Shown here: positions 45,576 through 51,347 of the stretch, piece by piece
Layout of the letters: each line of letters begins with the position of its first letter
Numbering within the stretch: the stretch's first letter is position 1
NCBI RefSeq assembly: GCF_031180885.1
Contig: NZ_JAPSLK010000001.1
Coordinates: 151,104-215,103 of the forward strand
Direction: 5' to 3'
DNA length: 64,000 nt
Source: Saccharothrix sp.
Lineage (GTDB): Bacteria; Actinomycetota; Actinomycetes; Mycobacteriales; Pseudonocardiaceae
The notes under the pieces: generated by a model
What the model was told of the DNA's origin: nothing
Database searches by the model: none
What the model saw: only the letters and a program-made list of their open reading frames with translations
Program-made: the position numbers and the translations under genes

Positions 45576-46556
45576 TCATCCGCCGAACGCGTCCAGCGAA
45601 CCGGCGTGCAGCGGTACCGGGTCGGTCATCGCGGCCTTCTCCTTGATGATGTCCTTGGCCGCCGGGTGCACCTTCTCCAGGTCCGCCTTCTTCTCGAAGA
45701 CGAGCTTGGTGACCGCGCACGCGTTGGCGTCCGGGAAGTCGGCCTTCACCAGCAGCAGGTTCGGCACCACGACGGTCGGGATGTCCGCGGGCTGCCCGTA
45801 GGTGGCGGCCGGGATGGTGCCCTTGTCGTAGACCGAGTTGATCTCCTTCAGCTTCTGCAGCTGCGGGGTGATGTCGATGAACTTGACCTGGTCCTTCAGC
45901 GACGTGGTGATGTCGGTGATCTGGGCGGTGGGCAGGCCGCCGGACCAGATCAGGCCGTCCAGGCTGCCGTCCTTCATGCCGTCCGCGGTCTTGGCCAGGT
46001 CGAGGCGCTGCGCCTGGACGTCCTTCTCCGGGTCGAGCCCGGCGGAGGCGAACAGGCGGTTGGAGATGACCTCGGTGCCGGACTTGGGCGAGCCGGTGGA
46101 GATCCGCTTGCCCTTCATGTCCGCGATCGAGTTGATGCCGCTGTTCGCGCGCACCAGGACCTGCGTGTAGTTCGGGTACAGGCGGGTCAGCGCCTGGATC
46201 TTCTGCGGCTTGCCGTCGAACGCGCCCTTGCCGCTCACCGCGTCGGCGGCGGTGTCGGCCAGCGAGAACGCCATGTCGTAGTCGCCCGCGACGAGCTGCT
46301 GGATGTTCTGCACGGACGCGCCGGTCTCGGCCGCGGTGGCCTTGAGCTTGGTGTTGTCGCTGATCAGCTTGGCCAGGCCGCCGCCGACGACGTAGTAGAC
46401 GCCGCCGGAGTTGCCGGTCGCGATGGTGATCCGACCGTCGGCCGCCTCGCACGCCGCGGTGCCGGAGCCGGTGTCCGTTGCCTGGCGCTTGCCGCCGCAC
46501 CCGGCGGCGACGAGCGCCACCGCCAGGACGGCGACGGGGACCTTCCAGCTACGCAT
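45576..46556 (-). CDS. TAXI-type TRAP transporter solute-binding lipoprotein
   Basis: A 326-residue lipoprotein (lipobox LVAAGC) with the TAXI-family pattern: [56 protein letters not shown]. It would capture a small carboxylate or related solute for the membrane component encoded just upstream. It overlaps the permease gene's stop by 8 bases, so the two are co-translated. The solute is unknown. Confidence 0.9.
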
Positions 46557-48519
46557 GGTGTTCCTTTCGCATCTTCGGCAGGAGCAGGTGCACGGCCACC
46601 GCGGCGACGAGGAACCCGATGCCGACGGCGATCGTGACCGGTTGCAGGTAGAGCAGGGCGATGGCGGCGGGGATGCACAGCAACCGCTCGGGCAGCGCCG
46701 CCTGGCGGACCAGCCAGCCGCCGGTGACCACGGCGAGCGCCGCGACCCCCAGCGCCGAGGCGGCGAAGACCCAGAGCGAGTCCACGAACGACGCGCGCAG
46801 CAGCAGGGCCGCGCCGTCGTCGGTGAGCACGAACGCGAGCGGCACGAGGAACGCGGGCAGCGTGTACTTCCACGTCCGCCACATCGTCTTCATGACGTCG
46901 CCGCCGGTGATGGCGGCGGCGGCCACCGCGGCGAGCGCCGTCGGCGGCGTCACCTCGGACAGCACCGCGTAGTAGAAGATGAACATCGCGGTCTCTTCAG
47001 GAGCCACGCCCAGCTCCATCAGCGCGGGTCCGATGACGACCCACGAGATGATGAAGGACGCGGTCACCGGCACGGCGAGCCCGAGCACGCTCACCGCGAC
47101 CGCGGCCAGCACGACGGTCACGAACAGCACGACCGACGGGTTGGACGAGATCAGGCCGGCGATGTCGACCAGCGCGGAGGCCAGTTCCTGCCCCAGCCCG
47201 GTCTTGGTGATGGTCGAGGTGATCACGCCGGCCGCCGCGCACACCGCGATCACCGGCAGCGCGCTGCGCACCCCGGTGGACAGCGAGTCGAGGATGGTCC
47301 GCCCCCAGGTACGGACATCCCCCTTGTGCGCGATCAACGCGAACAAAGCCGCGACCCCCGACGCGTACACCACGGCCGAGTAGACCGGGATGTCCAGCGC
47401 CAGGAAGACGACGATCACCCCGAGCGACAGGAAGTGGTACCCGCCGCGCTTGAGCAGCGCCCACGGGCTGGGCGCGTCGATCTCCACGGGCTTGGCCCCG
47501 AACCGCCGGGCGTCGATCTCCACGGCGAGGGCGATGCCCAGGTAGTACAGGAGGGTCGGCAGGATCGCCCAGATCAGCACCTGGAGGTACGAGGCCTCCA
47601 GGTACTCGGCGATGATGAACGCCGCCGCGCCCAACGTGGGCGGCGACAGGATCGCCCCGATCCCGGACGCGGCCAGCAACCCGCCCGCGCTCTCCTTGGG
47701 ATAACCGGCCTTCTTCAGCATCGGCCAGGTGACCGCGCCCAGTGAGACGGTCGTGGCCGTGCCCGACCCGGACACCGTGCCGAGCAGGAACCCGGCGGTC
47801 GCGGCCGTGCGCCCCGGCGCGGTCCGCGACTTGCGGAACGCCGAGAAGCTGATGTCCACGAAGAACGTCCCGGCGCCGGACGCGTTGAGCACGGCGCCGT
47901 AGATCGTGAACAGCACGATGTACGTGGCGGCGACGTCCAACGGCGTCCCGTAGAACCCGGTCGCGTCGTTGTAGAACCCGTTGATGATCTGCGCGAAGTC
48001 CACGCCCGCGTGCGAGATCGCCCAGGCCGGCGGCAGGTACCCGCCGTAGTAGGCGAACGCGACGAACCCGAGGCACACCAGCGGCAACACCCACCCGGTG
48101 GTCCGCCGACAGGCTTCGAGGATCAGGAGCAGCAGGATCGTCCCGGCGATGACGTCCAGGTCGGTCAACTGCCCCTGCCGGTCGAGGAACGCGTCGAACC
48201 CGCCGAACAACGGGTACGCCCCGACCGCGAACGCCAACACGGCCAACGTCCAGTCCAACGGCCCGGGGTCGTCCGCCCCACCCTTGCGCGGCCGGTAGCA
48301 GAGGAACACCAGCGGCAACGTGACGGCGAGGAACATCACCAGGTAGTACTGCCCGCCCTTGGCGAACGGCCAGAACACCTGCTTGAGCACCAGCAGGGCC
48401 ACCAACAACCCGGCGACCCAGATGCCCAACTCCCACCGCCGCGACAACGACCGCGAGGGCCGTTCCTCGTCGTACTCGGCGATCAGCTCGGCGACATCAG
48501 CCTGTGGCTTCGTCGACAC
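46549..48519 (-). CDS. TRAP transporter fused permease (4TM/12TM, DctQM type)
   Basis: A protein of about 656 residues with many membrane helices, in which the small and large TRAP subunits are fused. The DctM core includes GTVSGSGTATTVSLGAVTWPMLKKAGY and ASGIGAILSPPTLGAAAFIIAEYL, typical of TAXI-linked permeases. GTG 48519, behind AAGGAG, is chosen over GTG 48525, which overlaps that site. It should use an ion gradient to import the solute bound by the TAXI protein. Confidence 0.9.
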   Translation of the reverse strand: MSTKPQADVAELIAEYDEERPSRSLSRRWELGIWVAGLLVALLVLKQVFWPFAKGGQYYLVMFLAVTLPLVFLCYRPRKGGADDPGPLDWTLAVLAFAVGAYPLFGGFDAFLDRQGQLTDLDVIAGTILLLLILEACRRTTGWVLPLVCLGFVAFAYYGGYLPPAWAISHAGVDFAQIINGFYNDATGFYGTPLDVAATYIVLFTIYGAVLNASGAGTFFVDISFSAFRKSRTAPGRTAATAGFLLGTVSGSGTATTVSLGAVTWPMLKKAGYPKESAGGLLAASGIGAILSPPTLGAAAFIIAEYLEASYLQVLIWAILPTLLYYLGIALAVEIDARRFGAKPVEIDAPSPWALLKRGGYHFLSLGVIVVFLALDIPVYSAVVYASGVAALFALIAHKGDVRTWGRTILDSLSTGVRSALPVIAVCAAAGVITSTITKTGLGQELASALVDIAGLISSNPSVVLFVTVVLAAVAVSVLGLAVPVTASFIISWVVIGPALMELGVAPEETAMFIFYYAVLSEVTPPTALAAVAAAAITGGDVMKTMWRTWKYTLPAFLVPLAFVLTDDGAALLLRASFVDSLWVFAASALGVAALAVVTGGWLVRQAALPERLLCIPAAIALLYLQPVTIAVGIGFLVAAVAVHLLLPKMRKEHHA

Positions 48520-48757
48520 GCGCACTCCTTCGTGTCGCGCAGGGATCATGCGCCCCAGAAGCTACTTGTGGTCGCTCTCACAGCCATAGACCCACCATCT
48601 AAAGGGACTGTAAAGACCTCCACCAGCCCTCAGCTGAACCGATCAGCCACGTTCACACCGGCACCTGACCACCCTTCCGGCACCAGCACGGCGCAGTCAG
48701 CTTTTCGGCGCGAAGCGCCGTTGGATTGGGCCTCCGGTGGAGGCCACGGCTCGGCTT

Positions 48758-48926
48758 GGGCTTTTGCTTGTACCCTCCCCGCATGACCTGCCCGAAGGGC
48801 TACCCACAGATTTCCCGGGTGCAGCCGAAATTTTTTGTGAGGAACGAGCAAAAGTTTTCAGCGGCGCCCGGGAAATCCGTGGCAGGCTCCGCCAGGTCAT
48901 ACGGGGAGGGCACAAGCAAAAAGCCC
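48758..48926 (+). repeat. Hairpin unit H1
   Basis: A 169-bp long hairpin. The outer stem is GGGCTTTTGCTTG paired with CAAGCAAAAAGCCC; the next stem is CCCTCCCCG..ATGACCTG with its complement; the upper stem GATTTCCCGGG/CCCGGGAAATC is followed by GC, GC and GAAA/TTTC. The loop includes TTGTGAGGAACGAGCAAA. The single-stranded segment CCCGAAGGGCTACC lies on the left side. Confidence 0.85.
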
Positions 48927-48971
48927 CCGCAGTTTCTTTTGCTGGTGCCCAACCCCGGTGGCCTCCCAAGC

Positions 48972-49093
48972 CCGCTTTTGATCTTGAGAGCGCGTCAGCG
49001 CGTTCTTCTCGACACTCTTAAAGCGCTTTAAAGCTTTGAGAAACGCGCTTCGCGCTGGTCAACGCGCTGACGCGCTCTCAAAATCAAAAGCGG
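48972..49093. repeat. Central stem of the composite palindrome
   Basis: Arms 48972-49004 and 49061-49093 are 33 bp each with one mismatch (the CCGCTTTTGAT..TTGAGAGCGCG..GCGCGTT block). The 56-base spacer holds a perfect 14-bp palindrome TTAAAGCGCTTTAA (49018-49031) and a CGCGCTTCGCG mini-hairpin. Confidence 0.85.
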
Positions 49094-49126
49094 CCCGGAG
49101 AACCACCGATGGGGAGGGAAGGGCAT

Positions 49127-49270
49127 CGGTTCCCCCACCGCACGACCTGGCAAAGCCAACCACGCTTTGGTCGGGTGCCGCTGAAAATTTGCTCGTTCCT
49201 CACAAAATTTTCGGCCGCACCCGACCAAAGCGTGGTAGCCCTTCGGGCAGGCCATACGGTGGGGGAACCG
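49127..49270 (-). repeat. Hairpin unit H2 (inverted copy of H1)
   Basis: A 144-bp hairpin with outer stem CGGTTCCCCCACCG and its perfect complement. The upper stem is 20 bp and perfect (49159-49178 with 49217-49236). Read on the minus strand it has the same ATGGCCTGCCCGAAGGGCTACC entry and the same TTGTGAGGAACGAGCAAA loop as H1, but different paired bases in the upper stem. Confidence 0.85.
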
Positions 49271-49504
49271 AAGCCCCGCCGTGGCTGGGAGCCGGCCCGC
49301 CGCGCGGAGCGCGGCCTAAAAGCAAGCCGCTGCGCGGCGAAAACACGCGACTCGCGGTGGAATGCTTGCGATGCGCGGGCGGATTGGTCGATTCGCGGCA
49401 CAGCGAAGAACTGGCCCGCTTCCGCCGGACCTGAAGACGTGTCGGGCCGCACCGGGGGATTCCTCGTCGAAGGTGAAACCTGAGGACCGATCGTCCGTAC
49501 TGGA

Positions 49505-49765
49505 TTAGACCACTCGGCCGTCCTCATAGCACCAGCGCCAGTCCTCGCCCGGCTCGAAGGACTTCATCACCGGGTGCCCCTCCTCGTGGAAGTGCGCCGT
49601 GGCGTGCCGTCTCGGGCTGGAGTCGCAGCAGGCCACGTGGCCGCAGGTCAGGCACATCCGCAGGTGCGCCCAGTTGCGTTCGCCGGCGGCGAGGCAGTCG
49701 GCGCAGCCGCCGGTCGCGTCGGGGGACACCGCCTGGGGCAGGGTGGCGAGGTGAGGACAGGTCAT
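49505..49765 (-). CDS. UBP-type zinc finger protein
   Basis: The 86-residue protein starts MTCPHL and carries the zf-UBP pattern: CADCLAAGERNWAHLRMCLTCGHVACCD then HATAHFHEEGHPV, a Cys/His set that binds zinc. In eukaryotes the domain binds ubiquitin tails; bacterial roles are unknown. It is divergent from the Na+/H+ antiporter with only 28 bases between start codons, so both share a control region. Confidence 0.88.
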   Translation of the reverse strand: MTCPHLATLPQAVSPDATGGCADCLAAGERNWAHLRMCLTCGHVACCDSSPRRHATAHFHEEGHPVMKSFEPGEDWRWCYEDGRVV

Positions 49766-49793
49766 GGCGGCCATCATCACGCAAGATTGCGGC

Positions 49794-51347
49794 ATGCACG
49801 GACCGGAACTCCTGCTCCTCCTCGTCGGCGCGTTGCTGGTCACGGCCGGGGCCAAGCGGCTCGGGTGGCCGGCGCCGCTCGTCCTCGTCGCCGTCGGGCT
49901 CGCGGTGTCGTTCATCCCGGGACTGCCGGAGTTCGCGCTGGAACCCGAGTTGATCCTCGTGCTCGTCCTGCCGCCGCTGCTCTACTCGGCCGCGCTGGAC
50001 AGCTCGTACCACAACATCCGGGCCAACCTGCGGCCGATCGGGCTGCTCGCGGTGGGTCTGGTGATCGCGACGACGATCGGCGTGGGGTCGGTGGCGCACC
50101 TCGCCCTGCCCGAGTTGTCGCTCCCGGCCGCGCTCGTGCTGGGCGCGGTGGTGGCGCCGCCGGACGCGGTGGCGGCGGTGGCGATCGGGCGGCGGCTCAA
50201 CCTGCCTCGGCGGACCATGACGTTGCTCACCGGGGAGAGCCTGATCAACGACGCGACCGCGCTGACCGTCTACAAGGTCGCGGTCGCGGCGACGCTCGGG
50301 GTCACGGCCACCTGGGTCGACGGGCTGCGGACGTTCGTGATCGGCGCGGGCGGCGGTGTGGTGATCGGGTTGGCCATCGGGATGGGGGTCCGGTGGGTCC
50401 GCGCCCGGCTCGACGACGGCGTGATGGAGAGCGCGCTGGGCATGTTGGTGCCCTTCGGCGCGTACCTGTTCGCCGAGGAACTGGGCTCGTCCGGTGTGCT
50501 CGCCGTGGTGGTGGCCGGGCTCTACATCGGTCACTACGCGCCGCGCAGCTCGTACTACACGCGCCTCCAGGACACGGCCGTGTGGCGCTCGGTCGACATC
50601 CTGCTGGAGTCGTTCGTGTTCGCCTTGATCGGTCTCCAGCTGAAGACGACCGTGGGCGATGTCGACGTGACCGCCGGGTTGGTCATCGCCGCCGCATGGA
50701 TCCTCGCGGCCACGATCCTGGTCCGGTTCGTGTGGATGTACCCGGCCGCGTACATCCCGCGCTTCCTGTCCCCCCGCATCCGCGCCCGTGAGAAGGCACC
50801 GGGCTGGCGTGGGATCACCGTTTTGTCCTGGGCGGGGATGCGGGGTGTGGTGTCGTTGGCCGCCGCGGCCGCGTTGCCGCTCGATCTCCCCGGCCGGGAC
50901 GTGATCGTGTTCTGCGCGTTCGTCGTGACGGTCGGCACGTTGCTGCTCCAAGGCCTCACCCTGCCGTGGGTCATCCGGAAGTTGGGCGTGCGGGGCGACG
51001 AGGAGCGCGAGGACGCCCTCGCGGAGGCGCAGGTGCAGCACGCCGCCGCGCAGGCCGCCGTGGACCGCCTGGACGAGCTGATCGGCGGGGGCGACAACAC
51101 CCCCGACCACATCGTCGAACGGCTGCGCGTCATGGCCGAGCACCGCGGCAACGCGGCCTGGGAGCGCCTGGGCCGCCAGGAGGAGGAAAGCCCGGCCGCG
51201 TCCTACCGCCGACTCCGCCGGACCATGCTGGAAGCCGAGCGCCAGGTCTTCATCGAAGCCCGGGACAGCGGGCGGATCGACGACGAGGTCCTGTTCCGGG
51301 TGCTGCGCGAGTTGGACCTGGAGGAAGCGGCCATATCCCGTGAGTGA
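49794..51347 (+). CDS. Na+/H+ antiporter (CPA1/NhaP type)
   Basis: A 517-residue protein with about 12 membrane helices in the first 410 residues and a charged cytosolic tail with helical segments. CPA1 hallmarks include the helix with APPDAVAAVAIGRRL and the ion-site region GESLINDATALTVYK; WAGMRGVVSLAAAAALP comes later. It exchanges sodium for protons. ATG 49794 (MHGPELLL) fits the membrane start; an upstream ATG at 49764 overlaps the zinc finger gene. Confidence 0.92.
   Translation: MHGPELLLLLVGALLVTAGAKRLGWPAPLVLVAVGLAVSFIPGLPEFALEPELILVLVLPPLLYSAALDSSYHNIRANLRPIGLLAVGLVIATTIGVGSVAHLALPELSLPAALVLGAVVAPPDAVAAVAIGRRLNLPRRTMTLLTGESLINDATALTVYKVAVAATLGVTATWVDGLRTFVIGAGGGVVIGLAIGMGVRWVRARLDDGVMESALGMLVPFGAYLFAEELGSSGVLAVVVAGLYIGHYAPRSSYYTRLQDTAVWRSVDILLESFVFALIGLQLKTTVGDVDVTAGLVIAAAWILAATILVRFVWMYPAAYIPRFLSPRIRAREKAPGWRGITVLSWAGMRGVVSLAAAAALPLDLPGRDVIVFCAFVVTVGTLLLQGLTLPWVIRKLGVRGDEEREDALAEAQVQHAAAQAAVDRLDELIGGGDNTPDHIVERLRVMAEHRGNAAWERLGRQEEESPAASYRRLRRTMLEAERQVFIEARDSGRIDDEVLFRVLRELDLEEAAISRE

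Follow-up and report, generated by a model that had tools for sequence, protein, structure and literature searches.

Integron attC sites are folded single-strand hairpins whose stems are variable but self-complementary. REPINs of Pseudomonas fluorescens SBW25 are inverted REP doublets enclosing a self-pairing spacer that carries compensatory changes (PMC3116915), and REPINs are described as duplicated by RAYTs (PMC8049555). GTAG REPs have a stem of 5-13 bp and a tag 'not involved in base pairing'; their dimers with tags inside are designated TT and have variable spacers, and CGTC-tagged REP families are given there as having no transposase-gene association (Table 1, PMC3733652).

Here we describe a family of paired DNA hairpins whose copies lie dispersed in intergenic DNA within a small group of actinomycetes from soil. 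We read it, with moderate confidence, as a non-autonomous hairpin DNA element of REPIN-like type, copied via single-stranded DNA by some trans-acting enzyme. A literature search, conducted mostly outside subscription papers, found no title or abstract opening describing this family, and the strings 'repeat', 'hairpin' and 'palindrom' are absent from the text of the S. espanaensis genome paper.

The composite element and its hairpin unit

The window, by which we mean the whole 64,000-nucleotide stretch analysed, is G000:C51:151104-215103 of a 9.46-Mb genome in 125 contigs (G000). From a reading of the ORF list, the element lies between a minus-strand TRAP-transporter-like ORF on the left (46549-48549) and a minus-strand UBP-zinc-finger-like ORF on the right (49505-49915). 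Upstream of the TRAP-transporter-like ORF, CTAAAGGGACTGTAAAGA (window 48599-48616) is nearly invariant across genus loci and is perhaps a promoter or operator.

An earlier sequence-only reading described two inverted hairpin units around a central 33-bp stem, and inverted-repeat analysis finds both units and the stem in those places (Table 1). The shared loop it reported is also present, the 20-nt H1 loop region recurring exactly, inverted, in H2 (I8). Of the extent it proposed, 48700..49323, the start holds and the end does not: own-genome copies align to about 49344, and when the window copy is aligned with 39 own-genome loci conservation falls beyond about 48700-49344, with the right arm of the central palindrome among the best conserved columns. 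Both stems had been called exact complements, which is not fully accurate for H1: a single A.C mismatch and a single T.G wobble interrupt its inner stem. The fold is more stable than that of shuffled sequence (z = -19.1 on the plus strand and -25.3 on the minus strand, with 0 of 20 shuffles equally stable), and the loop 16-mer, allowing up to 2 mismatches, matches twice in the window against 0.02 expected.

Table 1 Features of the element in window coordinates
Feature	Position	Strand	Evidence
Whole composite: two inverted hairpin units, centre and small end hairpins	48700..49344	.	Alignment with 39 own-genome loci; blast copies
Left-end pair of small hairpins (CGGCGCGAAGCGCCG; GGCCTCCGGTGGAGGCC)	48706..48745	.	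Sequence; both in minus-strand fold
Unit A (H1), outer stem 48762-48789/48894-48921	48762..48921	+	Inverted repeats I4, I6; fold
H1 arms	48762-48795/48888-48921 and 48804-48837/48849-48882		
Unit A 5' REP-like arm (CCGCATGACCTGCCCGAAGGGCTACC on +)	48779..48804	-	Sequence; arm consensus, 392 arms
Unit A 5' arm mini-hairpin GCCC-GAA-GGGC	48790-48800		Sequence
Unit A inner stem and loop	48802..48882	+	Covarying stem
Unit A loop GTGAGGAACGAGC	48837-48849		Sequence
Unit A 3' REP-like arm	48881..48904	+	Sequence; arm consensus
Unit A 3' arm mini-hairpin GGC-TCC-GCC	48885-48893		Sequence
Central palindrome, 33-bp stem 48972-49004/49061-49093, 97% complementary	48972..49093	.	I3
Unit B (H2), same unit as A inverted, outer stem 49121-49149/49248-49276	49121..49276	-	I2, I7; fold
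H2 arms	49121-49149/49248-49276 and 49152-49190/49205-49243		
Unit B second mini-hairpin, GGC-TTT-GCC on minus strand	49149..49157	-	Sequence
Unit B apical loop, GTGAGGAACGAGC on minus strand	49191..49203	-	I8; pattern match
Unit B REP-like arm GGTAGCCCTTCGGGCAGGCCATACGG, mini-hairpin 49238-49248	49234..49259	+	Sequence
Right-end pair of small hairpins (GCCGCGCGGAGCGCGGC; GCCGCTGCGCGGC)	49299..49340	.	Sequence; first in both folds

One plan is common to all seven carrier species, namely G000, its sister species G016 (a single-contig genome), G006, G009, G010, G015 and G023. Its components are an outer stem, a pair of mini-hairpins, and an inner stem, which is long and carries the loop. The outer stem ends in CCGTATGGCCTG/CAGGCCATACGG or near variants, the left mini-hairpin is often GCCC-GNA-GGGC, and GGC-TTT-GCC and GTC-TTT-GAC are examples of the right one. 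Most loops in G000 and G016 are G(T/C)GAGGAACGAGC, and most in the other carriers are of the ACGCTTTTC type. In the aligned G000 and G016 units, helices 1-4 are paired in 97.2, 99.5, 98.0 and 100% of cells, respectively.

Read outward from the inner stem, both arms follow GGTNG-stem-loop-stem-CAGGYCATRCGG (consensus of 392 arms). Counted one base in, 355 of these 392 arms start with GTNG and 184 with GTAG, and the unit B arm GGTAGCCCTTCGGGCAGGCCATACGG is the commonest left arm in G016 (71 of 77). Because the inverted arms have a common consensus, the unit is an inverted REP-like dimer with its tags inside. The GTNG heads face inward, toward a spacer of ~60-83 nt, which pairs with itself in a long stem, and one strand folds to a hairpin with a four-way junction. 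The GGT of the tag pairs with ACC in the long hairpin, and the mini-hairpin stems are 3-4 bp. Unit anchoring left 1 of 197 units without an anchor; orientation by the loop came out reversed in G023, which was kept separate in the wobble count below and had its arm labels swapped in the arm consensus.

Two units are mostly joined, inverted, in G000 and G016, with their loops ~350 bp apart, and the composites point inward in 63 of 63 resolved cases (one further case was left unresolved). Partnerless single units occur in the stretches examined from G009, G010, G015 and G023, so the minimal unit is smaller than the 650-bp composite.

Other small palindromes accompany the family. A second class of hairpin in G000, which has GGGC-GCA-GCCC as its mini-hairpin and CCACGCTTTACC as its loop, resembles the second hairpin of G006 (L148, L149, L152, L219, L221, L223-L229). 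In a third class the stem is of a GTGTCAAGGG..GATC type and the long loop, which is unpaired, varies by copy (L248, L251, L253-L255, L246, L265, L274). A separate small repeat, GGCGAAGCCGGCGAGTGGCAGTCC, stands beside several G016 copies, and the intergenic DNA has the look of a mosaic of small palindromes.

Distribution of the family and its presence at shared sites

The loop count is 87 in G000 and 240 in G016, with 0 and 1 in the respective reversed controls, and ranges from 0 to 3 in the remaining 23 of the 25 genus genomes searched. Own-genome blastn gives at least 136 matches, with the best 40 of 188 candidates scored. The earlier suggestion of a dispersed, multi-copy family is thus borne out by copies in the window's own genome and its sister, and the case of no other copies does not arise. 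Draft contigs C3, C28, C55, C57, C65, C80 and C122 of G000 end inside or beside these hairpins, which makes the G000 copy count a lower bound. An exact loop 18-mer, TTGTGAGGAACGAGCAAA, is present in many genomes with mostly Bacteroidota titles among the matches listed, either by coincidence or as a repeat of their own, and gives no guide to the family's placement. Blastn of the element against plasmid and phage collections gave no match.

The entry motif is more conserved than the loop and so reveals a wider family. It is found 84 times in G000, 114 in G006, 10 in G009, 102 in G010, 63 in G015, 236 in G016 and 50 in G023, making 7 carriers among the 25 species searched in the genus. Elsewhere among 390 genomes of the taxonomic family it occurs at most 4 times, except for 12 occurrences in G249 (control 4). 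A stricter hairpin pattern, applied to 397 sampled genomes of the order, found G000 and G009 only, the other five carriers being outside that sample. The seven carriers form one clade with support of 0.999 in a one-locus tree of flanking coding sequence that includes 22 of the 25 genus genomes (G018 only in part).

In 16 relatives, including the carriers G006 and G015, the window's site is without an element: the gene pair is the same and its flank matches lie 22-69 bp apart. The corresponding distance is 905 bp in G000, 794 in G016, 515 in G009 and 755 in G023; in G010 it is 182 bp, and all that is left is the entry. The G023 site (L158 / L267) also holds several copies of CTTTCAGGGAGCCTGCC..TGAAAG-type palindromes.

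Querying 14 G016 sites in G000 identified 8 with both flanks close together, all of which are empty, with flank spacings of 0-142 bp in G000 against 675-888 bp in G016; in the remaining 6 at most one flank matched, or the two lay far from each other. Among 7 G000 sites queried in G016, L117 and L128 are empty, L149 is filled, L228 has flanks 2.3 kb apart, and L120, L125 and L225 have one flank or flanks apart (L116 was excluded from the flank query for N). Since 8 of 8 comparable G016 sites are empty in G000, recent spread of the family is probable. These differences are more simply read as gain in G016, because many G016 copies are near-identical; loss in G000 is possible. No target-site duplication was seen at 10 filled/empty pairs, in sister species whose divergence could have erased short duplications. 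The 8 inserts compared had no end in common; they have varied flanking sequence and include other small repeats.

Copies at shared sites resemble their genome mates. In 13 between-species locus pairs at 10 shared sites, the best orthologous unit scores 0.50-0.90 and the best same-genome copy 0.89-1.00. The same-genome copy beats the orthologue in all 13 pairs, a comparison that is tilted toward the maximum of many copies and against a lone orthologue. Set against the per-locus median instead, the means are 0.71 for the orthologue and 0.85 for the median, and 6 of 26 medians lie below the orthologue. Four pairs (L117/L273, L119/L253, L152/L201 and L250/L268) have one-flank support only, and re-insertion at a hot spot may be a source of shared sites.

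Pairing, strand bias and competing explanations

We aligned 55 of 90 candidate units from G000 and G016. As the sequence-only reading anticipated, covariation is strong: 97.9% of 3,237 cells are paired, against 87.4% after shuffling, 26 of 60 pairs are changed on both sides (shuffled 18.0), the covariation score is 0.292 (shuffled 0.117) and double-changed cells number 328 (shuffled 117). In the inner stem 16 of 32 pairs are changed on both sides; column pair 40/110, for example, is GC in 25 units, UA in 20 and CG in 10, with no unpaired cell. Sliding the partner along lowers pairing to 38-50%. Inner stems vary among species and copies and retain complementarity, as seen when arms are swapped: within species pairing falls from 97.3, 99.8 and 100% to 77, 76 and 77% (G000, G016 and G006), and between species to 67%. 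These numbers show that pairing is kept and do not count independent events, because the units are related by copying. The step from covariation to selection on an RNA or DNA fold, which the earlier reading took, is not established, since stems travel as modules and evolve in concert within a genome, and conversion or copying of whole hairpins could yield the same pattern.

Non-Watson-Crick pairs are biased by strand. Over the first 16 inner-stem positions of the top strand, the ratio of G.T/T.G to A.C/C.A is 17:0 in G016, 24:8 in G000, 5:0 in G010, 2:0 in G015 and 4:0 in G009, with none of either in G006; G023, scored on the other strand, has 6 A.C, equivalent to G.T in unit orientation. Outer stems show 34:3 in G016 and 73:22 in G000. 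Symmetric duplex mutation would give equal counts, so either one strand (RNA or single-stranded DNA) folds or mutation is strand-biased. For single units between co-directional genes, the top strand is the transcribed one in 11 and the antisense one in 10, which rules out gene orientation as the cause of the bias and weakly favours DNA over a flanking-gene transcript.

The elements lie mainly at gene ends. Of 109 called contexts, 58 are convergent, 44 co-directional and 7 divergent, and 160 of 218 flanks are gene 3' ends, at a median distance of 161 bp; published REPs have the same 3'-end preference. The gene calls, and hence the intergenic placement, rest on a composition heuristic, with 5 of 140 loci lacking a detected span and 26 of 135 elements lacking a call. 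A cruder gene caller, which placed spurious 5' ends by the hairpins, gave 34 convergent, 29 co-directional and 7 divergent (70 called). The window control has a convergent:divergent ratio of 17:18, the only usable ratio, as the control merges co-directional genes.

Several of these observations would suit a structured RNA or bidirectional terminator, with hairpins kept as flanking transcripts end or are processed there: the excess of convergent over divergent contexts, the top-strand wobble bias, the covariation, and the inward orientation of all 63 resolved composites, which means that the first unit reached from each of the converging genes has its top strand in the reading direction. We nevertheless consider this explanation doubtful. 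Single units between co-directional genes are unoriented (11 versus 10), in 16 relatives the window's gene pair does without an element, its gap being 22-69 bp, and the copy number and sister-species differences exceed a terminator's needs. Rfam gave 0 matches at the gathering cut-off in the window, in agreement with the earlier claim that no known RNA family is present; at 9 representative loci and E<=0.1 it gave 13 matches, all to microRNA-precursor models under their cut-offs. Alternatively, there may be no selection on the fold, with template switching at quasipalindromes rewriting one arm to match its partner, gene conversion spreading the result, and covariation a mechanical outcome. This is a stronger competitor than the terminator, although we still regard it as rather unlikely. 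Whole stem types occur as modules in the A context and in the B context alike, the 13 shared-site pairs show within-genome likeness, and the usual apical mismatches are corrected to a perfect palindrome in some units (for example, L142 and L194 +); yet conserved apical mismatches persist in most units listed, the bias of G.T over A.C is unexpected from strand-symmetric correction, and the outer stem and mini-hairpins hold one plan across seven species. Mechanical correction could operate alongside the REPIN-like reading.

An ordinary MITE of a DDE-type insertion sequence with terminal inverted repeats is very improbable. The element is dispersed, non-coding and about 650 bp long, with imperfect inverted ends (TTTTCGGCGCGAAGCG / TTTTCGCCGCGCAGCG) and existing empty sites, but there is no target duplication at the compared sites, no common end among 8 inserts, and four carriers (G009, G010, G015 and G023) have single units without a partner. 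Next to no weight attaches to a single local inverted duplication or an assembly artefact. Although several G000 contigs end inside or beside hairpins, the single-contig G016 contains 240 loops, seven species carry the family and elements stand at the orthologous site elsewhere; the copies already refute this explanation.

We looked for a copying enzyme. PF01797 (REP tyrosine transposase, RAYT) has no match in G000, G006, G009, G010, G015 or G016 and one match in G023, in a 148-aa frame, and the controls match in E. coli and four others. Its absence from 6 of 7 carriers led us to reject a RAYT as the common engine. Reverse transcriptase (PF00078) is absent from G006, G009 and G015, and on these three carriers we rejected it in the same role. 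PF04986 had no match anywhere, positive controls included, and is hence uninformative. Inspection by eye around the elements at shared sites revealed no candidate enzyme; the flanking genes look ordinary in their translations (rpoC end, dapD-like, thiolase-like). The copying enzyme is probably not a RAYT and may be a divergent enzyme.

Under the preferred reading of a REPIN-like element, the top strand of a unit would become single-stranded and fold, and a trans-acting enzyme would recognise the arms, with a copy inserted elsewhere. Insertions would survive mainly downstream of genes. Whole hairpins would be swapped or rewritten among copies, producing a species-specific stem repertoire with pairing kept. 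A role as bidirectional terminator or at mRNA 3' ends would be secondary. More tentatively, it is possible, if somewhat on the unlikely side, that these are clade-inherited REP-like hairpins that are still multiplying without a RAYT, by another single-stranded-DNA enzyme or a host pathway, and whose stems are rewritten in concert into each species' own sets of complementary stems.

Relation to REP dimers, REPINs and attC sites

The earlier reading recognised no gene, transposase or known RNA family here, and it missed that the plan has precedent in REP dimers and REPINs. The family is like integron attC sites in its variable, self-complementary hairpin stems, and unlike them in being dispersed singly or as inverted pairs downstream of genes, without cassette arrays.

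With GTAG REPs, TT dimers and BIMEs the family may have in common a GTAG-like tag at one palindrome end (GTAG in 184 and GTNG in 355 of 392 arms), and it shares tags inside and variable spacers, as well as a location mostly at convergent or co-directional gene ends (PMC3733652). It differs from those GTAG REPs in its mini-stem of 3-4 bp, in the pairing of the GGT of the tag, and in the lack of a RAYT, which 6 of 7 carriers do not have. The text of PMC3733652 contains none of the strings actino, Streptomyces, Frankia and Mycobacterium. Because the CGTC families also lack a transposase association, absence of a RAYT is not unique and alone is not new; those families have a CGTC tag, 8-9 bp stems and predominantly an outside tag (HH), unlike the present one (PMC3733652).

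Recent spread without a RAYT would be new, and the sister pair G000 and G016 makes the question testable. REPIN-like spread in a complete genome without a PF01797 protein would point to another route. In addition, the way self-complementary stems are rewritten in concert at scattered loci makes a clean case for setting fold selection against mechanical palindrome correction.

The likeness to REPINs lies in inverted short palindromic arms, a self-pairing spacer with compensatory changes, extragenic location, high copy number and genome specificity. The differences are that the GTNG heads face inward, whereas those of SBW25 face outward, judging from the published 16-mers (PMC3116915), that the arm hairpin is very short, the spacer stem long and near-perfect and the host an actinomycete, and that 6 of 7 carriers lack a RAYT-family protein. 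The family thus appears to work like a REPIN, and we do not file it as one because it fails on outward heads, on an unpaired tag with a 5-13 bp stem, and on the RAYT.
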